This document shows positions 4,766 to 61,715 of a DNA stretch of 64,000 nt, piece after piece. Below the pieces are notes generated by a model. The model saw only the letters and a list, made by a program, of their open reading frames with translations. It was not told the origin of the DNA and did no database searches. The stretch lies in NCBI RefSeq assembly GCF_000293805.1, contig NZ_AMBZ01000005.1:1-64000 (forward strand), read 5' to 3'. Numbering within the stretch: position 1 is the stretch's first letter; each line of letters opens with the position of its first letter. The DNA comes from Paenibacillus alvei DSM 29. Lineage in GTDB: Bacteria; Bacillota; Bacilli; Paenibacillales; Paenibacillaceae. Made by a program: the position numbers and the translations under genes.

Positions 4766-5482
4766 ATGGTAGTTTATTTGAAACATGATATTTTTGAAAT
4801 GATTAATACGATTGAAAGATTAAATCACGACTTAACGCCTACTTTGACAAGATTATTAGAACAACAAAACAGATTAAGAGAGGCTCTTAGACCTGCTACT
4901 TCAGCTTTGGCTACTGCTATGGAAGCAAATTATTTGGCATTATCTAAAGTCTCCGATACTCTTCTTCCTGTAGCAAAGGAATGGGAAGCTGTTGCCGACT
5001 TCATTCGGGAACAAGATTATAGTCATCTTTTCATAACTGATTCCTTATCTTCAAAACTGAAAGACTTGATTCAATCAGTGGAAGTAGAACTACCAGATAT
5101 TAAAGAAGAAATTATCCAAACAACTGCATTCGACATCAACTCACCATCATCTAATAAGAAAATGGATATCGGGCAATTTTTAAGTGTTATTGGCATCATC
5201 CTTACTGTTCTTAGCATGTTACACAATCAGCGAATCGCCGATGAAAGCAGCATAGAAGCTCAAAAATTACACCAGATTCAAATTGAACAAGCAGAGAGAC
5301 ATCATATCGAACGTATGGAGCAGGCAGAACGTCATCATCGTGAAGTGACGCAGGCTAATGGCGCAAAATCTTCACCCAATAAGGAATCAGACAATGTACT
5401 CGAAGACCTTATCTCTTCGATATTCACTGAGTTGCGTTCTTTTTTACCTTCTGAAAATACAAGTCATTCCGAAGATCAGTGA
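4766..5482 (+). CDS. Membrane/coiled-coil protein, candidate prophage moron
   Basis: This is the only plus-strand gene within the leftward early block. It encodes about 238 residues: a helical N-terminal half, one transmembrane helix near residues 133-152 (IGQFLSVIGIILTVLSML), and a His/Glu-rich coiled coil with a repeated QAERHH unit. The DNA is visibly more AT-rich than its neighbours. Its 3' end overlaps the convergent gene at 5424-5747 by 59 bp. An AT-rich gene in opposite orientation with its own start region is typical of lysogenic-conversion morons, but no function can be assigned. A TTG start a few codons in is also possible. Confidence 0.6.
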   Translation: MVVYLKHDIFEMINTIERLNHDLTPTLTRLLEQQNRLREALRPATSALATAMEANYLALSKVSDTLLPVAKEWEAVADFIREQDYSHLFITDSLSSKLKDLIQSVEVELPDIKEEIIQTTAFDINSPSSNKKMDIGQFLSVIGIILTVLSMLHNQRIADESSIEAQKLHQIQIEQAERHHIERMEQAERHHREVTQANGAKSSPNKESDNVLEDLISSIFTELRSFLPSENTSHSEDQ

Positions 5483-5747
5483 GGCTACTTAAAAGATCTC
5501 GCGCTCGCTTGGTGTTTATTTCAGTTTCTTCGTTTATGTGATTACCTTGTTTGATTTGGTATTCGTATTGCTTGTTCAATTCTTCATACTTTTGATTCAA
5601 TTTCTCTCGTTGCTCAATCAGTTGTGCATACTGCTGGTTGAGCTTGTTTTTTTCGATACCGTCCCAAACGTTAAAAGTTAAGGATAAAGTCAGACCAGCA
5701 ATCACTAGGTAAAACATTCGGCGAGCTCGTTTCTCTAAAACCTCCAT
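5424..5747 (-). CDS. Single-pass membrane coiled-coil phage protein
   Basis: From ATG 5747 the product has 107 residues. A positively charged N-terminus (EKRARR) is followed by one membrane helix (FYLVIAGLTLSLTFNVW) and then a long coiled coil rich in Gln, Lys and Glu. I chose this start because AAGGGG lies upstream and the longer frame would run into the antirepressor gene. It ends tail-to-tail with, and inside, the plus-strand gene 4766-5482. The layout (short cytosolic end, one helix, coiled coil) resembles spanin- or holin-accessory-like proteins, but nothing specific supports lysis. Confidence 0.55.
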   Translation of the reverse strand: MEVLEKRARRMFYLVIAGLTLSLTFNVWDGIEKNKLNQQYAQLIEQREKLNQKYEELNKQYEYQIKQGNHINEETEINTKRARDLLSSLTDLRNDLYFQKVKKNATQ

Positions 5748-5767
5748 GTTTATATCCCCTTTCTTAA

Positions 5768-6499
5768 TTAACCTGCTGCTTTCTGAAGAAGTAACCGGAA
5801 TGTTTCTCGTCCCTTCGGAGTAATCAACGGCTGTACATCTGCTTTGCCGTTCCGCTCCCATTCCTTGAGTTCAAAGAGTGCAGGCACATGTTGTGCATAT
5901 GGCTTGAGCTTCCCTTTTGGATCGCGGTAAACATAACCACGTTCCAGAAGCCAGTTGATGAACTCGCGTTCCTTGACATGAATCTCCTTCGCGGTGTCAC
6001 GGAAGTTGGTAAGCAAGTTGCGGTCAACCAATGCATCAAAGTAATCTGCTTTAGGCTGCATGACTGAAATCTGCTCATTTGCCTTCCGTACCGTTTCAAG
6101 TGTTGCCTTAAATATCAGCTTCGTTTGATCATCTGCATGCGGTAGATATGTGCTAATGAATAGATCCTCATTTGCTACATATCCGCCTGTCTTTCTGATG
6201 GTTGGGATAACGTCACCTGTAATCCATTTTCTAAAGGCTCTTGCTTCTGGTTTACGGCTTTCCAATATCACATCATACAAACCATCTTCATTAATGATTG
6301 TTGTTTCTTGCGGTCTTCCTAGTGAATCTGGGATGGTGTAAGTTGAACTTACGTCATCTCCCAAGCGCTCTTTTACCATGCGGCTGTTGCTTAATCCCAA
6401 CACCTGAACAACATCCTTCAAAACAAACCAGGGTGAACCATCCTTGATTACTGTTCTGACTTCATTACCTACATACTGGAACACTTGTAATTGGTTCAT
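5768..6499 (-). CDS. Phage antirepressor, BRO-N plus KilAC-like C-terminus
   Basis: This 243-residue protein has a BRO N-terminal DNA-binding domain (about residues 5-110, with PWFVLKDVVQVLGLSNSR and FRKWITGDVIPTIRKTGGY). Its C-terminal KilAC-type domain (about 150-240) includes REFINWLLERGYVYRDPKGKL. Such antirepressors inactivate or compete with CI-type repressors to push the prophage into lytic growth. Its ATG overlaps the stop of the upstream small gene by four bases, so the two are coupled. A second small-gene/antirepressor-like pair lies at 6970-7984. Confidence 0.9.
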   Translation of the reverse strand: MNQLQVFQYVGNEVRTVIKDGSPWFVLKDVVQVLGLSNSRMVKERLGDDVSSTYTIPDSLGRPQETTIINEDGLYDVILESRKPEARAFRKWITGDVIPTIRKTGGYVANEDLFISTYLPHADDQTKLIFKATLETVRKANEQISVMQPKADYFDALVDRNLLTNFRDTAKEIHVKEREFINWLLERGYVYRDPKGKLKPYAQHVPALFELKEWERNGKADVQPLITPKGRETFRLLLQKAAG

Positions 6500-6750: not shown

Positions 6751-6954
6751 TCATGGTGTAGTTCCTTTTTCAATTAACTGCCGTTCATAGTCAAGCACCC
6801 ATTCACGGCGGTAACGATACTCCTGACCTTCTTTGTAAAAGCGGATATCTCCGTTTTTAGACCGTCGCCGTATCGTCCATGTGCTGCGCTGAAAATACGC
6901 TGCAACGTCCTTGAGTTTAAGGACGGCCGGTAAGCTTGTCGGTAGCTCTGTCAC
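6751..6954 (-). CDS. MerR/excisionase-type helix-turn-helix protein
   Basis: The 67-residue product is a small winged helix-turn-helix: LKLKDVAAYFQRSTWTIRRRSKNGDIRFYKEGQEYRYRREWVLDY. This is the layout of excisionase-like HTH_17 proteins, which bind DNA directly and often act as Xis or as small regulators. It lies between the two antirepressor modules and far from the integrase, so a regulatory role is at least as likely as excision. Confidence 0.75.
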   Translation of the reverse strand: MTELPTSLPAVLKLKDVAAYFQRSTWTIRRRSKNGDIRFYKEGQEYRYRREWVLDYERQLIEKGTTP

Positions 6955-6969
6955 TGTGCATACCTCCTC

Positions 6970-7794
6970 TCATGATGCGCTAATGAGCTGTAACAGATCG
7001 TCAAACTTGCTCGCATAGTAGTGCGGTTGAGTCTCTCGCGGGTTAACCGGGCTAATGATGTTCTTCCCATAAATCAATCCGTCATCGGTCAACGATTTAA
7101 ATGTCTTGACTCTGCCATTGCTTGATGGCCGTTCCCTCTCTTCCAACAAGCCACGCTGAATTAATAAGGTGTTGAACTTGGCGGCCCCAAACGGTGCACC
7201 GTGCTTTTTCAGTAAAACCGTAGCCGATTCCGTGACATCCTCATTGACCGCATAGGCAGGTAATGGGACGTTGAGATGATGCACTTTAGCAAAGTCGCCC
7301 ATCAGCTTCAGTTTCCCGCTTTCCGGCAGCCGGAGTATATTGGCGGCTGCCTCAAGGAACATCATCTCCTTCCGGAAGTGCAGCGTATCGACTGTTTCCC
7401 TAGCCGGGTGGGACTGCTCTGCATCCAGTAGGTAGCTCCTTACTGTCTGCGCAATGATGCTGTCCCGTAAGAGCATTCCGATGCGGAGGACTGCCCGCCG
7501 TGGGATGACAGTGAAGGCCGATGCTGTTTTTCCAATTAAACCCATGTCCTTGTAGGACTTCAGTTCATTTCCCATCAATACCCGTAACCCGTCAGACTCC
7601 AATTCACTTCTGTTATCTTTGATACAAGAATTTATTGCTTCTTTGCCTACTTCGTAATACTCCGCTGCCATGTCTATGCTTACGTTCATGTCGTCCGGCA
7701 ACATGGCCAACTTCTTCACCTTGTCCAATACGTCTGTACGGTCAATGACTGATTCCCGCAGTGTCTTGCTTTCGATTAATGCCAGTTGATTCAT
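6970..7794 (-). CDS. Putative phage antirepressor-like DNA-binding protein
   Basis: From ATG 7794 the product has 274 residues and begins MNQLALIESKTLRESV. GAAAGGAAGAG is upstream. The N-terminal half contains a helix-turn-helix-like stretch (DMAAEYYEVGKEAINSCIKDNRSEL) and an IPRRAVLRIGMLLRDSIIAQ block. The C-terminal part looks like a separate winged domain that ends in a conserved Tyr/Lys-rich tail. The gene organisation copies that of the BRO antirepressor at 5768-6499, with a paralogous small gene immediately upstream, so I infer a related role. I cannot name the domain with certainty. Confidence 0.6.
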   Translation of the reverse strand: MNQLALIESKTLRESVIDRTDVLDKVKKLAMLPDDMNVSIDMAAEYYEVGKEAINSCIKDNRSELESDGLRVLMGNELKSYKDMGLIGKTASAFTVIPRRAVLRIGMLLRDSIIAQTVRSYLLDAEQSHPARETVDTLHFRKEMMFLEAAANILRLPESGKLKLMGDFAKVHHLNVPLPAYAVNEDVTESATVLLKKHGAPFGAAKFNTLLIQRGLLEERERPSSNGRVKTFKSLTDDGLIYGKNIISPVNPRETQPHYYASKFDDLLQLISAS

Positions 7795-7984
7795 TTGCCC
7801 GTCTCTTCCTTTCTTTCTTTTGTGCATACCGCATTCTCGAATCCATTTTTTTATAAAGCTGTCTCCATCTCTTCCAACTGACATCCCCCGGCTCTTTTAC
7901 CCAAGCAGGATTTTGTGGATGGAATACTATCGAGGTGCCAGCCCTTTCAGCCATTCTAAGTAAACATTCCTTTTTAACTTTCAT
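7742..7984 (-). CDS. Small basic protein preceding antirepressor-like gene
   Basis: This 80-residue basic protein (MKVKKECLLRMAERAGTSI...) is a paralogue of the gene at 6496-6693. Both share the AERA-x-(A/T)SI-x-F core, an NxAW element and a W(R/C)xW...LYxxxxSR(M/L)RY ending. AAAGGGAGG precedes ATG 7984. Its last 53 nt overlap the following antirepressor-like gene. The inverted repeat at 7997-8016 lies directly in front of its ribosome site, so its expression is probably controlled by the phage switch. Confidence 0.65.
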   Translation of the reverse strand: MKVKKECLLRMAERAGTSIVFHPQNPAWVKEPGDVSWKRWRQLYKKMDSRMRYAQKKERKRRANESTGINRKQDTAGISH

Positions 7985-7996
7985 AATTGCCTCCCT

Positions 7997-8016
7997 TTGG
8001 ATAATTTTTTATCCAA
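7997..8016. promoter_or_regulatory. Inverted repeat, candidate repressor operator
   Basis: This 20-bp element has perfect 8-bp arms TTGGATAA and TTATCCAA around a TTTT centre. The same GGATAA/TTATCC half-sites recur in the divergent cro/cI promoter (8357-8375) and at 8049-8066, which points to one regulator binding all three. It sits just ahead of the gene at 7742-7984. Confidence 0.65.
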
Positions 8017-8042
8017 TAATGTTAAAAAAATATCCATACCCA

Positions 8043-8071
8043 TTGACTGGATAAATATTATTATCTATAAT
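8043..8071 (+). promoter_or_regulatory. Strong rightward promoter, antisense to cro-like gene
   Basis: TTGACT (8043-8048) and a perfect TATAAT (8066-8071) are separated by 17 bp. The spacer holds a GGATAA-N6-TTATCT operator-like dyad. Transcription would run rightward, antisense through the cro-like gene and on into the cI-like gene, as lambda PRE does. The function is inferred from position. Confidence 0.55.
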
Positions 8072-8085
8072 GCATTATAGATAAT
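8060..8085. repeat. 26-bp perfect palindrome
   Basis: The two 13-bp arms (ATTATCTATAATG and its complement) meet without a spacer. It overlaps the -10 box of the rightward promoter and touches the stop codon of the cro-like gene. It is almost pure AT and lacks a GC stem, so it looks like a protein-binding site rather than a terminator. Confidence 0.7.
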
Positions 8086-8324
8086 TAATTTATCACTTTT
8101 TGGACAGACTTATCCCTAGACTGTTCAAAATAGTCGGGAAATAACATCTCAACTGGCTCATCAAAATACGTTGAGAGTTGGAACATCAGGTCCCTGCCAG
8201 GAGTGAAAGTTCCATTCTCAATCATGCGAAGGTACACTGTTGAGATTCCGTTTTCTGAAGCAACTTGTGCTTGAGTTCCTTTTGACTTGCGACACTTCGC
8301 AAAGTAAGGGCGCTTCTCTGCCAT
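8085..8324 (-). CDS. Cro-like XRE-family repressor
   Basis: The 79-residue protein has an XRE-type helix-turn-helix (GTQAQVASENGISTVYLRMIENG) and the RDLMFQLSTYFDEPVEMLFP ending common to small phage regulators. It is divergent from the cI-like gene across a 91-bp control region. By position it is the Cro equivalent, transcribed from the TTGACG/TATAAT promoter at 8350-8379. It lacks a dimerisation or cleavage domain, as Cro proteins do. Confidence 0.8.
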   Translation of the reverse strand: MAEKRPYFAKCRKSKGTQAQVASENGISTVYLRMIENGTFTPGRDLMFQLSTYFDEPVEMLFPDYFEQSRDKSVQKVIN

Positions 8325-8349
8325 TCGCTTCCCTCCTTTCGATAAGTCG

Positions 8350-8379
8350 ATTATACCGGATAATATTTTTATCCGTCAA
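8350..8379 (-). promoter_or_regulatory. Early leftward promoter with embedded operator
   Basis: On the minus strand TTGACG (8379-8374) and TATAAT (8355-8350) are 18 bp apart. The dyad CGGATAA-N5-TTATCCG at 8357-8375 fills the spacer and the edge of the -35 box. A repressor bound there would block RNA polymerase. This is the most likely cro/early promoter with its CI/Cro operator. A GATAAT at 8389-8394 could be the -10 box of the opposing cI promoter. Confidence 0.75.
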
Positions 8380-8415
8380 GGGGTGGTGGATAATTTTTTT
8401 TTGGAGGATAGATGA

Positions 8416-8700
8416 ATGATGACTCTTGGAGAAAAACTAGTTCGTCTTAGGGAAGAAAAGGGGCTTTCCCAGTATGAAGTAGCCAACAGGTTAGGCATAA
8501 AGAGACCGCGATATAACTCTTGGGAGCAAAACATTGCCAAACCTCGCTTAGAAATGTTGAAAAAACTGGCCGAGTTTTATGACGTGAAACCGGAATACTT
8601 GCTTGGTTATGAACCAGCGGAAAGTGCAACAATCCCAGAATGGGCCAACGCCAAGGATAAACGGGATTTCAAAAAATGCTTGAGGAAGACACGGGTTTAA
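8416..8700 (+). CDS. CI-like XRE repressor, N-terminal part (frame broken)
   Basis: The 94-residue frame holds an XRE helix-turn-helix (LREEKGLSQYEVANRLGIKRPRYNSWE) and the LAEFYDVKPEYLLGY segment of phage and SOS-type repressors. GGAGG lies 8 nt before ATG 8416. After DKRDFKK the frame leaves the family pattern and stops. The -1 frame continues as MLEEDTGLMFDGVPIEDEDREKV up to 8843, which is the normal C-terminal part. A missing A in the A6 run at 8671-8676 explains this. Either the prophage has lost an intact repressor or the base is a consensus error. Confidence 0.8.
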   Translation: MMTLGEKLVRLREEKGLSQYEVANRLGIKRPRYNSWEQNIAKPRLEMLKKLAEFYDVKPEYLLGYEPAESATIPEWANAKDKRDFKKCLRKTRV

Positions 8701-8843
8701 TGTTTGACGGTGTTCCGATTGAAGATGAAGATAGAGAAAAAGTCATGCAGGTTTTAGAAGTTCTTTTCTGGGACGCTAAAAAAAGAAGTAAGGAGAAGTT
8801 TACAAACAAGCGCTATAAAAAGAAATCAGACGAAAATAGATAG
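8676..8843 (+). other. Remaining C-terminal part of the CI-like repressor in the -1 frame
   Basis: These 55 codons (MLEEDTGLMFDGVPIEDED...KKKSDENR) form the natural continuation of the cI-like gene. They contain the short FDGVP and LFWDAKK elements seen at the C-terminus of many such repressors. There is no ribosome site of their own in front of the ATG, so they are unlikely to be translated separately. Confidence 0.65.
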
Positions 8844-8863
8844 TCTGGAGTGAGTCTGGAACT

Positions 8864-9283
8864 ATGAACCGCGCCATCAGAAGGCTACTACAGAGGTACA
8901 AAACAAACTGCCCTTTCGCATTGGCAAAGCGAAGGGGGATTATTCTTGTGTTTGAGGATTTGGGGGACTCAACCTACGGAATGTATTACACCAAGTTTCG
9001 GCAACGATATATTGTTATCAACAATAGACTCTGCGAGATATGGCAGCGCGTCGTGTGTGCACATGAATTGGGGCATGATGTTCTGCATCGAGGTGTAAAT
9101 CGTTTCTTTACTGATAACAGCACTTTTTTCATGTCGTCCAAGTATGAACGGCAGGCTAATGTATTTACGGTGGAATTGCTTACAGCGACAGAGGCGATAC
9201 TTGATGGCGAATCTATAGAAAACTATTTTTGTCGTTTAGAAATCCCTATGGAAATGGCCCCTTACTATAATGGGGCATTCTAA
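8864..9283 (+). CDS. ImmA/IrrE-family metallo-endopeptidase
   Basis: The 139-residue protein contains the zinc-protease motif HELGH within RVVCAHELGHDVLHRG, followed by SSKYERQANVFTVELL, in which the Glu of YERQAN would complete the zinc site. ImmA-type proteases cleave phage or ICE repressors when the host SOS or signalling state changes. The gene is directly downstream of the cI-like repressor and co-oriented with it, which makes that repressor the likely substrate. Confidence 0.88.
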   Translation: MNRAIRRLLQRYKTNCPFALAKRRGIILVFEDLGDSTYGMYYTKFRQRYIVINNRLCEIWQRVVCAHELGHDVLHRGVNRFFTDNSTFFMSSKYERQANVFTVELLTATEAILDGESIENYFCRLEIPMEMAPYYNGAF

Positions 9284-33229: not shown

Positions 33230-34524
33230 CTATTTTTTTGTCTGGATCGCTGTTTTGATCTGCTCGACTGCCTTCTTTAAGACATCTCCCGGTTGTTGAT
33301 TGTCATTCCATATTGCAGCAAGAGCAGCACCTGCCGGTACCCAAACGTTGCCCATTTCCGGGATGGACGGCATTGGAGCAGAATGCTTCGTTTGTTCTAG
33401 GAATGCAAGTGCATTCGCGTTCCCCTTGATGATCGGCTCCTCCATCATGTCTTGTCTCGGCGGCAGTTGTGTTGTCATTTCATATCGCTTGACGAGATTT
33501 TTGCGAGAGGTCGCATAACGCGCGAACAGCTTCGCTGCAACCGGATATTCGGTATAGGAACTGACATACAGCGCCCGGATGCCGGACATGCTTTGAGGAT
33601 GTTCTCCGTTAGGCAGCAGGGGAAGCGGAGCCACTCCGAAATCGATTCCCGCGCTCTTCACGTCCGTCATAAGCCAAGGCCCGCCTATAATAGCAGCTGT
33701 TTTCCCTTCCATGAAAAATCCGGTAATGATATTGTCGTTCATATCGTTGCTATTGACAGGCAGTATTTTGTTCAGCGATCGAAAGAACTCGGCTCCGGCG
33801 ATCGATTCCGCATTGCTCAAGCCAATATCGTCAGCATCCTTCCCTCCGTTGCCAAATATGTATCCCCCGTAGCCTGCCAGAAACGAGTAAGACTGATATA
33901 ACTGACCTACATTCCACATAAAGGCGTACTGTTTGTTTTTTGGATCGTTATACGTTTCAGCGAACCGAATGAGCTCTTGATAAGTGGCAGGAGCTTTATT
34001 CAGCAGTTTTTATTGTAGTACAGCGCATACGTATCAATCGCGGTTGGAAAACCGTAGAACACCCCATCATAGCTGACACCCTCTAGGGCGGAATCCATAA
34101 TTTGATGTTTCATTTGCTCGTCGTATACATCATTTTGCAGCACGAGTCCTGCCATGACTGCATTCCCCAAATGATCATGCGGCGCGGAGAACACATCAGC
34201 CCCGATTCCAGCAGGTCCATCCGTCGTCAGCTTCGTGACAGCGTCGATTGACGGAACCGCCACTACTTTTACACCAATCCCATATTCCTGTTCGAAATCT
34301 TCTGCGACCGCTTTCAAAAAATCCAGTTCAGGCCCCTTCGATTCCCATACGAGCAAATGAGCCCCCTTCTCCGGCTGCAATCCAGCTTGTCCTTCTCCCT
34401 GATGTGCATTCTTCCCTCCAGCTTCCGAAGATGTTGAGATCGCATGCTGTACGCCGCAAGCCGAGAGCAGCATCATGATGCACAATGAGAGCATCAACAT
34501 TGAAATGAAGAAGCGTTTAGACAC
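33230..34524 (-). pseudogene. malE: Maltose/maltodextrin-binding lipoprotein, single-base frameshift
   Basis: The frame from 34524 encodes a lipoprotein signal (LSLCIMMLLSAC), linker and N-lobe through ALYYNKN, then stops at 34000. The next frame continues KLLNKAPATYQELIRFAETYNDPKN...FMWNVGQLYQS to 33230, which is the normal second half. Exactly one A is missing in the A5 run near 34015. With it restored the protein has about 430 residues and binds maltodextrins for MalFG. Consensus error is as likely as mutation, since all neighbours are intact. Confidence 0.88.
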
Positions 34525-34554
34525 GTTCTCCCCCCCATCTATTGGTTGTTGTTA

Positions 34555-38073: not shown

Positions 38074-39042
38074 TTATGAGGTAACCGGAATCTTTATTTC
38101 TAGCGCTTTATGGTAATCCTTTATCATGTTTCGTTTTTTATCCTCCAAAGGCATCCCGTTCTTATTGACAAAAAGAGTATATGGCTTCACAATAATAAAT
38201 TTTGTCGCAGAAGCCGATGGAGCATACAATATTTTTTCGTTATATTCCTTCTCTGGTTTTTTTGCGTATATGCTCAGCATGGATTGCTCCAATACTTTAC
38301 CTTTATCGTCTACGATTTCATAATACATTTTGGATTGATGATACCCATTCGGTCGCTTCGTGCTGCTGCTTGGAATTTCTCCCTTGCTGTGAATTTGCAG
38401 CAATGTTGTTGCGTCAGTCATTCGCAAACTTGTTACCTCGTAATTGAATTTCTGCGTACTTTTCTTTGTATTCGGCTGTATGTTTATATCCCGTTTGGAG
38501 ATGTTTTTCACTGGAATGACAAGAGACACCTCCGCTGCCTCAAATTTCGCATTAATCGTCAACTCAAATTCATTCGGAAGAATAGGCTCTCCCGTTTTCG
38601 GATCGATGGCATTTGTAAACTCAATCATGCACATATTATTCTCTTTTCCTTTTTCCACAGGAACCGAACTAGCCATCATCGATAGCTTGTCCACCTGAAG
38701 CGGCTGTCCGTTTACCAGATAGCTCTTACTAGCAAATAGCGGGTTTTCTTCGCCTTCGGACTTCAACACCATAACCAAGCGAAGACCGTCGAACATAAGC
38801 TCAGGCACGCTTAATGTAACTCCGTCTTTTGTTGCCTTAGCATCTTTCACTGTCGTCAAGCCTTTTTTGCTGGCTGCCTTTAACCCAGGGCCTCCCCACT
38901 TCTGAAACACACTTGATCCAGATGCCGCTGCACTTGCGGCAGGCAAATCAACGCTAGCCGCTCCTGCTCCTGTGCCCAATACAGCCGTCAAACACGTTAC
39001 CGCTATCATCTTCTTCAATAATGATTGTTTATATGTACTCAT
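38074..39042 (-). CDS. Secreted DUF4179/DUF5643-like protein
   Basis: From ATG 39042 (GAAGGAGG upstream) the 322-residue product has a signal peptide (KKMIAVTCLTAVLGTGAGAA). The region GLKAASKKGLTTVKDAKATKDGVTLSVPELMFDGLRLVMVL resembles the DUF4179 ectodomain of membrane anti-sigma factors, and the C-terminal half resembles DUF5643. It lacks both a cytosolic sigma-binding part and a partner sigma gene. It is the last gene of a three-gene operon with two DUF4367-like secreted proteins. Confidence 0.7.
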   Translation of the reverse strand: MSTYKQSLLKKMIAVTCLTAVLGTGAGAASVDLPAASAAASGSSVFQKWGGPGLKAASKKGLTTVKDAKATKDGVTLSVPELMFDGLRLVMVLKSEGEENPLFASKSYLVNGQPLQVDKLSMMASSVPVEKGKENNMCMIEFTNAIDPKTGEPILPNEFELTINAKFEAAEVSLVIPVKNISKRDINIQPNTKKSTQKFNYEVTSLRMTDATTLLQIHSKGEIPSSSTKRPNGYHQSKMYYEIVDDKGKVLEQSMLSIYAKKPEKEYNEKILYAPSASATKFIIVKPYTLFVNKNGMPLEDKKRNMIKDYHKALEIKIPVTS

Positions 39043-39068
39043 TTCCACATTTCCTCCTTCATTCTTGA

Positions 39069-39806
39069 TTATTTTCTGACAATCATCGATTCCGCAAGTG
39101 TAATTAAGTCTTCCTTCGTCATCGGGTTATCAGCGTTCGTATAAATATTGCAGCTCAACGCTTTGTCGACCCAAATTAGTTGGTTCTCTCCCGCTTTATT
39201 GCCACTGCCTTTTTTCGCAGGGTAATAAGTGTATTCTTTCTTGTTCGTCGCATGCTTCGTTCCCATATCATAAAAGTTCAACTTCACATAATTTTTATCA
39301 TTTGCAAATTTGAGCGTCATCGATTCTGATTTATTCCAATTATATTTTTTCGAAAGCACCACTTTTCCTGATTTTTGCGCCTCTGCCCTCAAATTTGCCT
39401 TAAAATTCTGATCCAAATAAGGCAGAAATCCTGCCTCAACAAAGGCGTACTCTTCCGGCAGGTCTGTCGGTCGCTGCAATGCTGCTCCCTTTAATCCAGC
39501 GACTTTCTTCATATAGTCGTCATAATTTTGAAATTGTTGCTTTACATTCCCATACCAGAACACCTCCGGCCCTTTGGACTTCGTCTTTTTGTTATCTACG
39601 AATACGCAATAAGTACCGCCGTTTTTTTGTACCTCTTTATCCAATCTTGCCAGCTCTTCCTCCAAGACCTTTGATTCTCCCGTAGCGCCTTTCATTGTAT
39701 AATCAATTGCGCTTTTTTTAGCCGCTGCCTCCACTGTAAAGTTCACGGAGCTGAATAGCAGCATACCGCACACCGCTGCAATTGCTAGTTTGGATGTCAT
39801 TTTCAT
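39069..39806 (-). CDS. Secreted DUF4367-like protein, array member 1
   Basis: The 245-residue protein starts at ATG 39806 (GAGAGGAG upstream) with a signal peptide MKMTSKLAIAAVCGMLLFSSVNFTVEAAA. The mature part has a helical head (LEEELARLDKEVQKN), a DLPEEYAFVEAGFLP centre and a C-terminal QLIWVDKALSCNIYTNADNPMTKEDLITLAESM, the ending of DUF4367 domains. It follows array member 2 by 25 bp and shares its promoter. The function is unknown. Confidence 0.75.
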   Translation of the reverse strand: MKMTSKLAIAAVCGMLLFSSVNFTVEAAAKKSAIDYTMKGATGESKVLEEELARLDKEVQKNGGTYCVFVDNKKTKSKGPEVFWYGNVKQQFQNYDDYMKKVAGLKGAALQRPTDLPEEYAFVEAGFLPYLDQNFKANLRAEAQKSGKVVLSKKYNWNKSESMTLKFANDKNYVKLNFYDMGTKHATNKKEYTYYPAKKGSGNKAGENQLIWVDKALSCNIYTNADNPMTKEDLITLAESMIVRK

Positions 39807-39831
39807 AAATATATTCTCCTCTCTTTCAGCC

Positions 39832-40596
39832 TCATCTATTAATTCTGACCATCGTTTCCGCAAGTTTGATCAAGTCTGCCTTCGTCAAAGTATTTCCTTC
39901 GTTGGTTATAATCCGAAATTGCCTGCCTTGTTCCGTCCATAGAAGTGTGTTTTGCTGCGGGCTATTCCGAAATTCTGGTTTTAACTTTTGCCTTTTCTCA
40001 TCAGCAGTTTGATAATGATACCCTTTCTGGGCAGAGGATGCTTTCGAATCCCGTGCAATATATTCCAAAAGCAACTTATCTTCACCATTCTTATATTCCA
40101 AAACAAGTTGACCAGCTTCTGTCCACTCATATTTCTTCGACAACACAGCTGCACCTTTCTGCTTGGCCTCTTCTCGCAAATCGTTCTTGAATTGCGGACT
40201 GAATGGACATAAAAGTTCTGCTTTTGCAAAGGAATATCCTTCTGGCAGATTTGTAGGCTCTACTAATATGACTCCTTTTAAATCAGCAGCCTTCTTCAAA
40301 TAATCCTCATAGGTTTCATAGGAAGGTGCGACATGCCCGGTGAAGATAACATCCGAACCCTGGCTTTTTGTCTTTTCATTGTCAATAAATATGCCATAAG
40401 ACTCGCCTGGATTTTTCTCAATCAATTTATTTAGTCTTGCCAACTCATCTTCAAGAACCTTTGGCTCTCCCGAAGGGTCTCTCACGGTATAGTCTATTTC
40501 GCTTTTGGCTGGCGCAGCCTCCGCGGCATTGTTCATACAACTGAACATTAGCATTCCGCATATTGCTGCAATTGCTAGTTTCGACGTCATTTTCAT
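39832..40596 (-). CDS. Secreted DUF4367-like protein, array member 2
   Basis: This 254-residue paralogue has a near-identical signal peptide (MKMTSKLAIAAICGMLMFSCMNNAAEAA), the NLPEGYSFAKAEL centre and the ending NTLLWTEQGRQFRIITNEGNTLTKADLIKLAETM. It is the first gene of the 40596-38074 operon, behind the TGTCACA-type promoter at 40657-40683. Its ribosome site is weaker than those of its paralogues (AGGTAAATAG). Confidence 0.75.
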   Translation of the reverse strand: MKMTSKLAIAAICGMLMFSCMNNAAEAAPAKSEIDYTVRDPSGEPKVLEDELARLNKLIEKNPGESYGIFIDNEKTKSQGSDVIFTGHVAPSYETYEDYLKKAADLKGVILVEPTNLPEGYSFAKAELLCPFSPQFKNDLREEAKQKGAAVLSKKYEWTEAGQLVLEYKNGEDKLLLEYIARDSKASSAQKGYHYQTADEKRQKLKPEFRNSPQQNTLLWTEQGRQFRIITNEGNTLTKADLIKLAETMVRINR

Positions 40597-40656
40597 AAAG
40601 ACTATTTACCTCACTTTGTACTTTTTTCTTATGGAAGTTCTATTTTCATCTATATG

Positions 40657-40683
40657 AACAATTGAAAAACGAGATTTGTGACA
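40657..40683 (-). promoter_or_regulatory. ECF-like promoter of array member 2
   Basis: The minus strand reads TGTCACAAA, then 13 bp, then TTGTTCATAT (15 bp between TGTCACA and TTGTT). The same two boxes precede three other array genes. TGTCACA is a known -35 type of some ECF sigma factors (ECF41/SigJ). Confidence 0.55.
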
Positions 40684-40716
40684 CGGATCGACTTTTTTAT
40701 GTTATAAATCTAAAAA

Positions 40717-40762
40717 ATCCCTCGAAATAAGACTGACGTTATCGCCGTCTTCTCCGAGGGAT
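40717..40762 (-). terminator. Terminator of the blaI-like gene
   Basis: ATCCCTCG pairs with CGAGGGAT around an inner GAC/GTC stem. The minus strand continues TTTTTTAG. Its sequence (GGAGAAGACGG) resembles the terminators of the neighbouring array genes. Confidence 0.8.
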
Positions 40763-40770
40763 GTAGACCA

Positions 40771-41190
40771 TTATAGATTATACGTGTTATTCTTTTTTGC
40801 TTTATCGTCATCACGGTTCTCATCAAATAACGATTTTAGATCCTCAATTTCCTGCGCATTTAGCTTTTTATCCTGTAAAAAGTTGGCCAGCATCGGCTTT
40901 AAAGCTCCGCCATACAACTTTTTCATAAAGGATTTGGTTTCGGATTGCAGATACTCCTGCTCGCTGATGAGTGGGTAATACAGATAGTTTCGTTTCGACC
41001 CCTTCTCCAGCTTTGCTCCGGCCGCTTCTTTCTGAACCAATCGGCTCAGGAGCGTCCGAGTCGTATTCGGGCTCCACTCCATCAAATCCGTCATTTGATT
41101 TACAACCTCACTGGAAGGACAATCCGGACGCGCCCACAATACGCGCATAATCTCCAGCTCAGCATCCGTAATAGGCGGTATTTTATTCAT
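40771..41190 (-). CDS. BlaI/MecI-family repressor, orphan
   Basis: The 139-residue protein has the Penicillinase_R winged helix (ITDAELEIMRVLWARPDCPSSEVVNQM...EWSPNTTRTLLSRLVQKEA) and a dimerisation tail. In BlaI this domain is cut by the activated BlaR1 pathway, but no blaR1/mecR1 sensor gene is present here. It sits inside the array of secreted DUF4367-like genes, in the same orientation, with its own terminator. A TTGACA near 41268-41263 may be its -35 box. Its targets are unknown. Confidence 0.88.
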   Translation of the reverse strand: MNKIPPITDAELEIMRVLWARPDCPSSEVVNQMTDLMEWSPNTTRTLLSRLVQKEAAGAKLEKGSKRNYLYYPLISEQEYLQSETKSFMKKLYGGALKPMLANFLQDKKLNAQEIEDLKSLFDENRDDDKAKKNNTYNL

Positions 41191-41494
41191 TCAAGAAACC
41201 TCCAAACTCAATCACTCAAGACCACGCATGTAGTTATACTCATGCTATAATTGTACTTTTATAATGTCAACCTCTTTTGTACAGAACGGGTTAGTTGCTG
41301 TTGCTGCAGGAATGATAATCAATAAAAAGAACCCATGCAATCCCGTTCCAAGGACTGCGTGGGCCTAATTTACAAAACCTAAGCTAATTGTTCAACCTAT
41401 TATTTTTTACCGCTGCTTTCAAAATTTCGATTCTCTTTTTTAGACATATTTGATGAGGTGGAAATACTGTATTTGTAATCAACAGAAAATGTAT
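41191..41494. other. Gap between blaI-like gene and array member 3
   Basis: This stretch holds the blaI promoter region (minus-strand TTGACA near 41268 and a TATAAC near 41232) and the terminator of array member 3 at 41332-41363. The part from 41395 to 41494 is AT-rich and shows nothing else. Confidence 0.4.
41332..41363 (-). terminator. Terminator of array member 3
   Basis: CCCACGCA (minus strand) pairs with TGCATGGG with one mismatch, and TTCTTTTTATT follows. It is 131 bp after the stop codon. Confidence 0.65.
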
Positions 41495-42259
41495 TTATTT
41501 CTTAACCATCGTCTTTGCAAGCTTGATCAGGTCTTCCTTTGTCAGCGGATTCTCAGGATTGGTTGAAATCGAGAACCCTTTACCCTGTTCATACCAACTT
41601 AATGTGTTACTAATAAATTTTGAATCAAGTTTTGGATTTTCCTTTTTCACATCCGCAGCAATTTTGTAGGCAAATCCTTTTTCTTTCTTATCCATTTCTT
41701 CAATCCGATAACTCGAGAACTGTATATAATCCTTTCCGTTTACGAAACGTAACTGGATCATATTCGTATCCTTCCACTCAAGCTTCTTTGAATACACCTT
41801 TTTACCGAGCTTTTTAGCCTCAGACATTACGGCTGCCGCATACTCATTTGTATACGGCCCTACAACAATAACCCCGTCGTACGTATAGCTCTTCGACAGG
41901 TCAGCAGGCTTCTGTGGAGCCGGCTCTTTTATAACACGCAATAACTTCTCATAGTCCTCGTATCTCTCATATCGTGGATTAAAGTTGCCATAACCAAAAA
42001 CCTCAAATCCCTTTGGCTGAAAACTGCTGTATATTAGATACATATCACACGGATTTTTTTCCAACAGTTTGTCAAGTTTAGCCTTCTCTGCTTGCTCCAA
42101 CTTCTCGCCTTCACTTGCAGCCATTGGTTTCGTTGCTGCTGTCTTCAAGTTGATGCCGCTTATAGCATGATCTGACGCTGTGCCTGACATGAGGTGCATG
42201 GATCCGAACAATAGAATGCTGCATAGTGAAGCAATTGCTATTTTCATCTTCGTATTCAT
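41495..42259 (-). CDS. Secreted DUF4367-like protein, array member 3
   Basis: From ATG 42259 the product has 254 residues with a signal peptide (MNTKMKIAIASLCSILLFGSMHLMSG), a Lys/Glu-rich helix (EGEKLEQAEKAKLDKLLEKNP), and a C-terminus NTLSWYEQGKGFSISTNPENPLTKEDLIKLAKTMVKK shared with members 4 and 5. It stands alone between its own promoter (42309-42336) and terminator. Confidence 0.75.
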   Translation of the reverse strand: MNTKMKIAIASLCSILLFGSMHLMSGTASDHAISGINLKTAATKPMAASEGEKLEQAEKAKLDKLLEKNPCDMYLIYSSFQPKGFEVFGYGNFNPRYERYEDYEKLLRVIKEPAPQKPADLSKSYTYDGVIVVGPYTNEYAAAVMSEAKKLGKKVYSKKLEWKDTNMIQLRFVNGKDYIQFSSYRIEEMDKKEKGFAYKIAADVKKENPKLDSKFISNTLSWYEQGKGFSISTNPENPLTKEDLIKLAKTMVKK

Positions 42260-42308
42260 ATAAAATCGCACCTTTCCTGTATTAGTATGTAATATCTACC
42301 ATTTATAT

Positions 42309-42336
42309 AACAATTTCAACCATTTGATTTGTGACA
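42309..42336 (-). promoter_or_regulatory. ECF-like promoter of array member 3
   Basis: The minus strand reads TGTCACAAA, 14 bp, TTGTTATATAAAT. It matches the member 4 promoter in both boxes and in spacing. Confidence 0.6.
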
Positions 42337-42362
42337 TGACTTTCAATCGAAGAAACGCAAAT

Positions 42363-42404
42363 ACCCCCAGGTTAGACATGCTGATCCACGTCTTCCCTGA
42401 GGGT
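42363..42404 (-). terminator. Terminator of array member 4
   Basis: ACCCTCAGG (minus strand) pairs with CCTGGGGGT, with an inner AGAC/GTCT stem. It shares the CTCAGGGAAGACGT block with the terminator of member 5. Confidence 0.75.
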
Positions 42405-42452
42405 GTTCAATATCGGACTATCTTACGTTTCGTATCAATAACAGGAGGCTTC

Positions 42453-43234
42453 TTACTTTTTGACCATCGTTTTTGCCAACTTGATCATATCTTCCTTCGT
42501 CATTGGATTCTTTGGATTCGTATGAACGGAAAGCAACTTGCCGTGTTGGATCCAAACCAACGAATTTACTAGATATTTCTCGTCTACATATGGATTATCT
42601 TTTTTCATTTTTTCCGCGCTTGTATAGGTATACTCTTGACTAAAATTTTTCTTATCCACCGCATCAGGCTTCCTACTGCTTATTTTGATAAAATTGTCTC
42701 CATTTTTGAATTCTAATTTGGTTTCATTTGTGATTGTCCAGTTAAGCTTTTTAGAGTAAATCTGTTTTTTAATTTTTTCGCTTCTGCTTTCAATTGCGCA
42801 GAATAATCTGTGCTGTATGGTCCTATCATCTCTGCCTCGGAGAAGACATATCCCTTAGGCAAGTTAGCAGGTTGTTGCAGCGTTGCCTCCTTCAAACTGG
42901 CTGCTTTCTTCAGATAGTCTTCATATTTATTAAATTTCGGCCTGGTGTTGCCCATCATGTAGACTTCCACACTGCCTTTGACTTTTGTCAATTCTTTACT
43001 TACATACACAATATAGGTATCATCCGGATTTTTTTCAAGCAATTTGGTAATCCTATCCTGTTCTGCTTTCTCCAGCTTTTCACCTTCAGTCATGGTCTTT
43101 GGTTTAGCTGCTGCCGTCTTCAGCGTAATATCGCTTATCGAACGAGAAGATGCTGCCTCTGCTGCGAGATTCATCGAACCGATTAATAAAATCCCGCTTA
43201 TTGTTGCGATTGCTATTTTCATCGTCATTTTCAT
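42453..43234 (-). pseudogene. Secreted DUF4367-like protein, array member 4, frameshifted
   Basis: ATG 43234 opens a signal peptide (MKMTMKIAIATISGILLIGSMNLAAEAA) and a normal N-terminal half up to EAKKLKN, after which the frame stops at 42713. One A added to the A6 run near 42768 restores KKQIYSKKLNWTITNETKLEF... and joins the C-terminal half, which ends MTKEDMIKLAKTMVKK at 42453. The repaired protein has about 260 residues, like its paralogues. This is either a recent lesion or a consensus error. Confidence 0.8.
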
Positions 43235-43283
43235 TTCAAATTACTCCCTTCTTGTTTTAACGTGGAATAGTATCTATTTATAT

Positions 43284-43311
43284 AACAATTTTCAGTATGC
43301 CATTTGTGACA
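43284..43311 (-). promoter_or_regulatory. ECF-like promoter of array member 4
   Basis: The minus strand reads TGTCACAAA, 14 bp, TTGTTATATAAAT. It lies 50 bp before the start codon, as does its counterpart at 42309. Confidence 0.6.
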
Positions 43312-43341
43312 TCATTTTCAGTAGTCCATGAAACAAAAACA

Positions 43342-43383
43342 ACCCTCAGATTAAGACATTCTCTCTACGTCTTCCCTGAGGGT
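43342..43383 (-). terminator. Terminator of array member 5
   Basis: ACCCTCAG and CTGAGGGT form a perfect stem with an inner AAGAC/GTCTT, and the minus strand continues TGTTTTTG. Confidence 0.85.
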
Positions 43384-43432
43384 CGTTTATATCAAAGTAA
43401 CTACTGTTATTCACCGTAAAATGAAATCTTTT

Positions 43433-44206
43433 TTATTTTTTGACCATTGTCTTTGCAAGCTTGATCAGGTCTTCTTTTGTTAAGGGGTTTCCCGGATCCG
43501 TTTCAATCTTGAATTGTTTTCCTTTTTCAAACCAAATGAGCATATTTTTGGGGTCTTTCTCATACACTTTATTTTTCTTACTTAACTCCTCAGCAGTCTG
43601 ATAGACGTAGCCTTTTTGATTTACAACCTCATTAGGATCCAGACGCATATAGCCTAATATTAGTTTATGCTCCCCATTCGCATACTCTAGTTCGATTCCT
43701 CTCGCGTGCACCCAGTTAATCTTTTTGGAGTAAACCTGCTTTCCAAGCTTTTTAGCTTCAGCCTTCATTTCAGCAAAATACTCCCCGCTATTTGGTCCCT
43801 TCATTGCTGCCTTTACAAATTCATATCCTTCCGGCAGATCTGCCGGTTGCTGCAGCACGCCGTCTTTTAAAGTAGACGCCTTCTTAAGATAGTCCTTATA
43901 ACTGTCATATTTTGGCCAAACATTGCCCTTGAAGAACACCTCTATTCCTTTTGTTTTCGTTAATTCATTACTGACATATACCGCATACAGATCCTCTGGA
44001 TTTTTAGCCAGCAACTTGTCAATTTTAGCAGTTTCTTCTTTTTCTAGCTTCTCCGCCTTACTTTCATTCTTCTTATTAGCAGCCGCTATCTTCATCATCA
44101 TTTCGCTTGGAGCAAGAGACGGCGCAGCCAAAGCCGTAAAATGCACGGAACTTATAAATAAAATTCCACTAAGCGTCGCAATCGTCATTTTCATTGTCGT
44201 CTTCAT
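43433..44206 (-). CDS. Secreted DUF4367-like protein, array member 5
   Basis: The 257-residue protein has a signal peptide (MKTTMKMTIATLSGILFISSVHFTALAA), a charged helix (NESKAEKLEKEETAKIDKLLAKNPEDLYAVYVS), the DLPEGYEFVKAAMKGPNSGEYFAEM centre and the ending MLIWFEKGKQFKIETDPGNPLTKEDLIKLAKTMVKK. It is the intact reference copy for the broken member 4. Its own promoter is at 44264-44292 and its terminator at 43342-43383. Confidence 0.78.
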   Translation of the reverse strand: MKTTMKMTIATLSGILFISSVHFTALAAPSLAPSEMMMKIAAANKKNESKAEKLEKEETAKIDKLLAKNPEDLYAVYVSNELTKTKGIEVFFKGNVWPKYDSYKDYLKKASTLKDGVLQQPADLPEGYEFVKAAMKGPNSGEYFAEMKAEAKKLGKQVYSKKINWVHARGIELEYANGEHKLILGYMRLDPNEVVNQKGYVYQTAEELSKKNKVYEKDPKNMLIWFEKGKQFKIETDPGNPLTKEDLIKLAKTMVKK

Positions 44207-44263
44207 ATTGATAGTTCTCCTCTCTGTTTTTCATATCGCAGAGCTAATTTCCACTTTACCTAC

Positions 44264-44292
44264 TTAACAACATAAAACTTTTGTTTGTGACA
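44264..44292 (-). promoter_or_regulatory. ECF-like promoter of array member 5
   Basis: The minus strand reads TGTCACAAA, 13 bp, TTGTTAAGTAG. The boxes match the other three array promoters, while the sequence between them differs, which argues that the boxes themselves are under selection. Confidence 0.55.
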
Positions 44293-44323
44293 TAAACTAA
44301 AAATTACTTTGTACAAAAAATAA

Positions 44324-44363
44324 CCCCCAGAAAAACTGCTAACCTTTCACGGCTTCTCCGGGG
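44324..44363 (-). terminator. Orphan terminator related to the array terminators
   Basis: On the minus strand CCCCGGAGAA pairs with TTCTGGGG, with one bulge, and TTATTTTTTG follows. GGAGAAG recurs in the blaI terminator. No clear gene lies in front of it. Confidence 0.6.
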
Positions 44364-44489
44364 ATTGCTCGATATATTTCGTCAGATTGCGAAACCTTTC
44401 TTCGTGCGAATATGGGCATGTCCCCCTATGCATAACAATCTCCATAATCCATTTTGCGACAGACTTCTAGCAATTCCAGACATAAAAAA

Positions 44490-44532
44490 CTCCCCCAAAG
44501 GAATACTTAGCATGTAAGTTCCTTTGAGGGAG
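44490..44532 (-). terminator. Terminator of ispH
   Basis: CTCCCTCAAAGGAA pairs with TTCCTTTGGGGGAG (minus strand, one mismatch) and is followed by TTTTTTATG. It lies 150 bp after the stop codon. Confidence 0.85.
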
Positions 44533-44681
44533 CCGTGCTCATTTGCCATTACATGTTACACATGCAGACTTTATGATATGAAGTTACATTACTTTGGATC
44601 GAAGCCCGCTTCTGCAACGGGATTCACTGAGCCCCTGTTCTTCTATATTTCTACGTACCAGCTAGTCCCTTTGTTTCATCT

Positions 44682-60845: not shown

Positions 60846-61715
60846 CTATTGGCTCAACACACGCTTTTCCAGCTTGCGGCCGGTCGGCGTGTTGGCCAGA
60901 CCGCCTCCAGCAGTTTCACGGTAGGCGCTTGGCATGGAACGTCCAACTTCATACATGGCCATAATCACCTCATCGGCCGGTATTCTGCTCTTGATGCCGG
61001 CTAAAGCCATATCCGCGGCTACGACCGCCGATGAGGCACCGACTCCGTTCCGCTTCACGCAAGGGACTTCTACAAGGCCTGCTACCGGATCACATACTAA
61101 TCCCAACATATTCTTGAGTGCAATCGCCATCGCTTCTGCCGATTGCTTTGGCGTTCCGCCTGCCATTTCTACGACAGCCGCAGCAGCCATTCCCGTTGCG
61201 GATCCAACCTCTGCTTGGCAGCCGCCAGCCGCGCCCGCGATGCAGGCGTTATTCGCGATTACGAATCCAAAGGCGCCTGCTGTAAATAGAAATTCAAGCA
61301 TTTGCTCCCGCGTAGGGTTCAGCTTCTCCTTGACGGCGAACAAAACCCCTGGAACGACGCCTGCCGAACCTGCGGTCGGATTGGCGCAGATGATGCCCAT
61401 GGCCGCATTTACTTCGTTGGTAGCAACAGCCTTGCTAACTGCATCAAGTACGAGGGATCCAGCTAATGCATTGCCACTGGCTATATATTGTTGAAGGAGG
61501 AGTGCATCCCCTCCGGTCAAGCCGGAGAGAGACCGGACTCCTTTTAATCCTTTCTCGATGGCCTGCTCCATCACGGTCAGATTGGCATCCATCGCCTTCA
61601 TGATTTCTTCTTCCGTCTGCTGCCGAAGCGATACTTCTCTCTCCAGCATCACGCGGGATATTTTACACTGCCTCTCTTCGGCCAACCGGACAAGCTCTGC
61701 TACGCTATGGAACAT
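60846..61715 (-). CDS. sdaAA: L-serine dehydratase, iron-sulfur type, alpha subunit
   Basis: The 289-residue subunit begins MFHSVAELVRLAEERQCKIS at ATG 61715 (AAGGAGGG upstream). It contains NPTAGSAGVVPGVLFAV, NNACIAGAAGGCQAEVGSA and LGLVCDPVAGLVEVPC, whose Cys residues bind the 4Fe-4S cluster that deaminates L-serine to pyruvate and ammonia. It overlaps sdaAB by 16 bp, and both are needed for activity. Confidence 0.95.
   Translation of the reverse strand: MFHSVAELVRLAEERQCKISRVMLEREVSLRQQTEEEIMKAMDANLTVMEQAIEKGLKGVRSLSGLTGGDALLLQQYIASGNALAGSLVLDAVSKAVATNEVNAAMGIICANPTAGSAGVVPGVLFAVKEKLNPTREQMLEFLFTAGAFGFVIANNACIAGAAGGCQAEVGSATGMAAAAVVEMAGGTPKQSAEAMAIALKNMLGLVCDPVAGLVEVPCVKRNGVGASSAVVAADMALAGIKSRIPADEVIMAMYEVGRSMPSAYRETAGGGLANTPTGRKLEKRVLSQ

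Follow-up and report, generated by a model that had tools for sequence, protein, structure and literature searches.

Probable free copies of receptor sensor domains and two classes of predicted control element in Paenibacillus

The 64-kb window of Paenibacillus alvei DSM 29 analysed here, the whole stretch of DNA that was read, contains an array of genes whose products appear to be outer (sensor) domains of membrane stress receptors, secreted as free proteins. Two receptor kinds are involved, the anti-sigma factors of extracytoplasmic function (ECF) sigma factors and M56 proteases resembling BlaR1, by which the BlaI repressor is inactivated, and the genes for the free copies seem to have been placed under the output of either of the two pathways, through an ECF promoter or through paired BlaI-type operators. 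The core of the original prediction, free sensor domains under an ECF-type promoter, was right, as judged from the sharing of the domain with receptors and from the same promoter preceding sigma operons; the BlaR1-like receptors and the operator-based control were not part of it. Coordinates refer to the window unless a contig (C) or locus (L) prefix is given; the own genome (G000) comprises 6.83 Mb in 25 contigs.

Array layout and protein identity

Along the minus strand the order is the ispH hairpin, a degraded promoter, a hairpin, paralogs 5, 4 and 3, blaI, paralogs 2 and 1 and the DUF5643 gene, with the following features:

44480..44536 (-), terminator-like hairpin 3' of ispH, -26.7 kcal/mol
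44431..44461 (-), degraded fifth ECF-type promoter between two hairpins, 2 mismatches, its gene probably lost
44312..44372 (-), terminator-like hairpin, -22.3 kcal/mol
44266..44292 (-), ECF-type promoter of the 44206 gene, TGTCACAAA-N13-TTGTT
43433..44206 (-), ARR5 (paralog 5), predicted free secreted sensor-domain protein, based on its open reading frame (ORF), alignment A1 and model m3a3a2c8f60ca
43330..43388 (-), terminator-like hairpin, -27.6 kcal/mol
43284..43311 (-), ECF-type promoter of the 43234 gene, TGTCACAAA-N14-TTGTT
42456..43234 (-), ARR4 (paralog 4), frameshifted, in two pieces
42352..42408 (-), terminator-like hairpin, -28.7 kcal/mol
42309..42336 (-), ECF-type promoter of the 42271 gene, TGTCACAAA-N14-TTGTT
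41495..42271 (-), ARR3 (paralog 3), predicted free secreted sensor-domain protein
41318..41366 (-), terminator-like hairpin, -20.7 kcal/mol
41242..41270 (-), sigma-70-like promoter before blaI, TTGACA-N17-TAGCAT, a consensus match only, from a scan that as a whole did not exceed shuffles
41220..41235 (-), imperfect BlaI-type operator, AACTACATGCGTGGTC, 2 mismatches, same sequence before the NAIST15-1 ortholog
40771..41190 (-), BlaI repressor
40712..40768 (-), terminator-like hairpin, -26.1 kcal/mol
40657..40683 (-), ECF-type promoter of the 40596 gene, TGTCACAAA-N13-TTGTT
39832..40596 (-), ARR2 (paralog 2), predicted free secreted sensor-domain protein
39069..39806 (-), ARR1 (paralog 1), predicted free secreted sensor-domain protein, no promoter of its own seen
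38074..39048 (-), predicted free secreted protein, DUF5643/DUF4179-like, an anti-sigma ectodomain lacking the cytoplasmic part

The six hairpins, at -20.7 to -28.7 kcal/mol, were equalled in none of 200 shuffles, and with such strong hairpins between them the array genes look like separate units. Four promoters with common boxes had been predicted and were found, starting at 44292, 43311, 42336 and 40683, with spacers that differ in sequence; their fuller form reads TGTCACAAA-N13/14-TTGTTATAT. Among the promoter matches of the window, none precedes ARR1 (39806) or the DUF5643 gene as a promoter of its own; the DUF5643 ortholog in the syntenic locus of NAIST15-1 (L053) has one (L053:14804). Paenibacillus sp. 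NAIST15-1 was isolated from a rhizosphere and is described as open to genetic work, including in-frame deletions and Northern blots (PMC5072692). At the place of the degraded promoter, NAIST15-1 carries an intact promoter (L053:5143) with a paralog (5158-5964), so that the window has probably lost a gene at 44431-44461. Furthermore, a pair of blaI and M56-fusion genes lies within the NAIST15-1 array and is not present in the window. Several of the named homolog loci are records from the G genomes used below (L053 is G016:C18), and the two sets are not independent.

In alignment A1 of the array proteins, the rows below the first are 41-52% identical to it. Five paralogous secreted proteins had been described, and the related ORFs are indeed present where located, but 42456-43234 is split into two frames, leaving four of five intact. 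The ARR1 ORF spans 39069-39863, with 39806 as the likelier start. Of the motifs said to be shared, the exact ending LTKEDLIKLAKTM occurs in two proteins only and the exact DLPEGYxF in one, the other paralogs carrying variants. For paralog 5 the nearest named homolog, 94% identical, is from Paenibacillus alvei, and named homologs of the array proteins are all from Paenibacillus (40 matches; 15 loci). The protein at 40771-41190 belongs to the BlaI family (PF03965, 107.8 bits; cut-off 22.6).

The proposed DUF4367 identity (PF14285, curated cut-off 22.1 bits) stood in part. Homologs above the cut-off are P0002 (31.9 bits) and the L238 free copy (31.2 bits), together with the L238 anti-sigma factor (25.1 bits), but no window paralog exceeds it: only 39832-40596 gave a match, at 19.5 bits. 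L243 reached 19.8 bits, L224 gave no match, and just 5 of 29 family members matched at E 0.01. In L238 the domain forms the outer part of a 335-residue anti-sigma factor encoded 3' of a sigma gene and 5' of a free copy; L239-L243 contain ORFs of L238-like layout, identified by that layout, Pfam having been applied to L238. Similarly, the interleaved protein announced as DUF4179-like, 38074-39048, matches DUF5643 at 42.3 bits (cut-off 34), but DUF4179 at 26.9 bits stays below the cut-off of 30.1.

Alignment of six free DUF4179-type proteins with three anti-sigma factors (A6) indicated that the long cytoplasmic part is absent from all six. Of the segment that follows the membrane helix, most is gone in four of them, and the 38074-39048 protein and its NAIST15-1 ortholog retain part of it. 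In RsiV the region after the membrane helix is described as shielding the signal-peptidase site (PMC6066255), and the free forms might thus be cut and released without a signal.

For the array family proper, the ARR5 model has RseB/MucB as its best fold match; residues 105-257 align to RseB, and the modelled C-terminal domain shares its fold. No enzyme or ligand-binding family was found by Pfam or fold search of the array proteins. In a Paenibacillus metagenome-assembled genome (L048:442-2451), four tandem small lipoprotein-like ORFs of 116-123 residues lie upstream of an array-family gene. A literature search found no paper naming DUF4367 or DUF5643, with subscription journals and preprints outside its scope and novelty accordingly unproven, and none on such an array of free sensor domains was among the matches listed (in one search the best 12 of 287).

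Two control classes for one domain

In the own genome a loose form of the promoter pattern gave 13 rows against two in the reversed control. Nine precede regulon-type genes (four in the window, C10:184231, C13:291036, 293264 and 293298, and C5:522763), and four rows (three places) lie within unrelated genes. At G000 C13:293234-293298 free DUF4179-type genes are preceded by a tandem pair of complete ECF promoters at a distance of 34 bases from each other. Across 19 genomes, the own and 18 others of the genus, the promoter with TTGTTAT yielded 36 sites against three in the control, and 10 of the 19 have a site. Loci were read for 30 sites: 14 lie ahead of an ECF sigma gene that has a DUF4179-type anti-sigma gene after it (in L104 the former appears to be in pieces), 12 stand before free secreted sensor-type genes (five DUF4179-type, four array-family and three of a second domain, SEC), two before lipoprotein genes and two before nothing recognised. 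The genome-wide motif search proposed with the original prediction therefore led to ECF sigma/anti-sigma operons and free sensor-type genes alike.

The C10 and C13 gene pairs of the own genome, which have the array promoter, encode sigma factors with sigma-70 regions 2 and 4 and anti-sigma factors with DUF4179 plus DUF5643. Close relatives of these sigma factors (E ≤ 1e-60, a threshold picked after the list was inspected) occur in nine genomes, all of which have a promoter site; of the ten genomes without a close relative, a single one has a site, a remnant, so that 18 of 19 agree (Fisher 1.2e-4, relatedness not corrected for). One of the two sites before nothing recognised, L097 (G015), shares its core with a G006 promoter but stands there without the gene of that promoter, and thus looks like a remnant. 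Control by one sigma factor, as originally suggested, was not established: the promoter is found with sigma genes of two types or more, any of which may drive the array. Binding of a sigma factor to these sites is itself predicted from position and sequence.

Variants of these loci include a sigma factor and a DUF4179 anti-sigma factor fused in one 768-residue ORF (L038:7748-10054; G000 C5:496747-499053), and sigma and anti-sigma factors encoded by two overlapping ORFs (L058, L217, L226). Solute-binding-protein-like lipoprotein genes recur next to sigma loci in L016, L038, L239 and L241, and in L105 and L109 such a gene lies directly under the ECF promoter.

A family-wide search of 197 genomes gave 67 sites in 37 genomes against one control row. 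Of these sites, 16 loci were assigned outside the genus and read: eight have a closely related sigma gene behind the site (E 4e-56 or better) and eight do not, so that the pattern is not exclusive to the array-type regulon there. By sequence, the L248 and L250 sites precede oxidoreductase-type genes. L246, L248, L250 and L254, all from other genera, have a site whose core, with TTGTTATA, is nearly identical but which stands before other genes and possibly marks another ECF regulon.

The array domain is also found fused to an M56 protease; 18 of 19 such fused genes were examined, from 13 genomes, with blaI just upstream of 17. The BlaI next to the C5 M56 fusion and that of the window share 82% identity. 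Because the domain thus belongs also to BlaI-paired, BlaR1-like M56 receptors, the window BlaI, described as an orphan, is not a stray gene, and there is probably a second control circuit. Anti-sigma factors, named as the source of the sensor domains, are so in part: their ectodomains can be aligned with the DUF5643 protein, but the array domain occurs in M56 receptors as well. Putative BlaI operators of the form AACTAC-N4-GTAGTT precede the free copies beside blaI-M56 loci; there are mostly two of them, around -50 and -78, at a distance of 24-26 bases. For 17 of the 18 M56 fusions, at least two operators stand before a free copy in the neighbourhood, and the operator also precedes several blaI genes. 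A second domain, SEC, follows the same pattern, with free copies under the ECF promoter (L090, L115, L117), an operator-controlled free copy (L048:7714) and an M56 fusion (L048:5302).

In a set of 59 free copies the ECF promoter stands before 14 and the operator before 17, and none has both, where about four would be expected (Fisher 0.006). This count omits pieces below 150 residues, rows that lack the N-terminus and any ORF matching M56 or sigma domains, and one of its ECF rows (G008 L243), in which the second box is poor, may be a chance match. Reversed patterns gave 0 and 0 hits in this set, and shuffles 0.04 and 0.045 per set. In a tree of 37 rows, in which the broken window gene is represented by an N-terminal piece and the C5 free copy by a C-terminal piece, operator-type copies group with M56-fused domains in two clades with 100/100 support, and the control labels require 16 changes against 22.0 in shuffles (0/200 as low).

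Proposed feedback on the receptors and competing explanations

We propose that free sensor domains induced by the receptors feed back on them, for which we see about an even chance. Once exported, as the sequences predict, the free domains would act back on the receptors outside the cell: they would either compete with them for the ligand that triggers induction or, like RseB on RseA, form a cap over the receptor, and the response would thereby damp itself. More tentatively, and with somewhat less expectation that it holds, this may be a general soluble-receptor scheme of Paenibacillus: the ectodomains of two unrelated receptor classes would serve as interchangeable modules, and pathway-induced secreted copies would set the threshold, duration or cross-talk of extracellular envelope-stress signalling, possibly being shared between neighbouring cells.

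Several observations weigh against receptor feedback. Neither control element lies within 150 bases of 28 of the 59 free copies (13 of these 28 lie directly 3' of a DUF4179 anti-sigma gene), and in the tree the fused domain L056 groups with ECF-type rather than operator-type copies. The window blaI has an imperfect operator only. The operator pattern shows no enrichment in the own genome, with 20 rows (10 palindromic places) against 86 control rows, and the evidence for it is positional; the nearest M56 receptor of this genome (C5) is itself broken. For the likeness to RseB, Foldseek E-values were all above 0.001 and a profile comparison (hhalign, shallow alignments) gave no match (Prob 0.2). 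No LolA-like N-terminal domain of RseB was seen, residues 47-104 being too short and not searched alone; the lipid-sensing N-terminal domain of RseB has ~190 residues (PMC7400510). Finally, 6 of 11 domain-bearing genes of the own genome are frameshifted or broken in other ways (window 42456-43234; L037:5748-6592 and 7312-8976; L038:5242-6005 and 6783-7555; L039:5629-6404), whereas among 30 comparable genes of the window that lie outside the array only 2 are (Fisher 0.002, for sets sampled differently). Several of them are near A/T runs, and the breaks may reflect real decay, phase variation or assembly error (indels). The window regions 33233-34533 and 60874-61714 are likewise read in more than one frame relative to intact NAIST15-1 ORFs.

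The free domains could themselves be effectors that bind the harmful ligand sensed by the receptor and neutralise it or carry it off, in the way that the BlaR1-induced beta-lactamase deals with the ligand of the BlaR1 sensor domain; we regard this as rather unlikely yet credible. Such a layout would resemble the BlaR1 system, in which the sensor is related to a secreted induced protein, the BlaR1 sensor domain resembling class D beta-lactamases (PMC7593790), and several free copies per locus would fit a dosage-dependent effector. However, the family searches offered no enzyme or ligand-binding match, and the best fold matches, RseB/MucB, are regulators.

It is improbable that the free copies are functionless, decaying leftovers of domain shuffling between receptors. 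The excess of broken domain-bearing genes (6/11 against 2/30), the unit lost at 44431-44461 and an uneven copy number of 0 to 18 match rows per genome would suit such an origin. Against it, the ratios of non-synonymous to synonymous substitution (dN/dS) relative to NAIST15-1 were 0.21, 0.25 and 0.20 for paralog 3, paralog 2 and the DUF5643 protein (BlaI 0.12, ispH 0.08), pointing to selection on the three window genes tested; moreover, control elements stand at fixed distances across species and a free copy lies beside 17 of 18 M56 fusions.

Lastly, ownership of the promoters by an ECF41 sigma factor, a group using -35 TGTCACA with -10 CGTC or TGTT (PMC3426412), is very improbable: an ECF41-type sigma is encoded in the own genome (G000:C6:457934) and some matching sites in other genera precede oxidoreductase-type genes (L248, L250), but the distribution of ECF41, which 15 of the 19 genomes have, shows no link to that of the site (Fisher 0.30), the own-genome TGTCACA site upstream of the ECF41 gene has a different -10, TCTGTCTTA, and 14 of 30 sites precede another sigma type with its anti-sigma gene.

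Relation to known systems

With the ECF41 regulon the array shares the -35 TGTCACA, whereas the -10 in the own genome is another, and across genomes ECF41 and the promoter site show no co-occurrence. The DUF4179/DUF5643 ectodomains of anti-sigma factors such as RsiV and B. anthracis BAS1627 can be aligned with 38074-39048 and related free proteins, but these free proteins lack the cytoplasmic part and, in four of six, most of the segment following the helix. The BlaI/BlaR1/class D beta-lactamase system likewise combines BlaI and an M56 protease with an extracellular domain related to a secreted operator-controlled protein; the array-type sensor, in contrast, is DUF4367-like or PepSY-like and not penicillin-binding, and the window copies are under an ECF promoter. 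RseB/MucB, which act with RseA/MucA in the sigma-E and AlgU pathways, are resembled in the modelled C-terminal fold and in gene order, since for 13 of the 59 free copies the gene of the soluble extracytoplasmic protein comes third, behind those of a sigma and an anti-sigma factor, as in rpoE-rseA-rseB. They differ in their LolA-like N-terminal domain (not seen in the array proteins, residues 47-104 not having been searched alone) and in sequence profile (no match with shallow alignments), and the array family has many copies per genome and a domain that is also part of receptors.

ECF anti-sigma factors and BlaI/BlaR1-like receptors, usually treated separately, are joined here by one sensor domain, and two separate regulators are placed before free copies of it. 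This suggests a testable role for DUF4367, DUF5643 and those BlaR1-like proteins that have no penicillin-binding domain. Should feedback by the free copies hold, they would be to bacteria what soluble decoy receptors are to animal signalling, and the Gram-positive equivalent of RseB.

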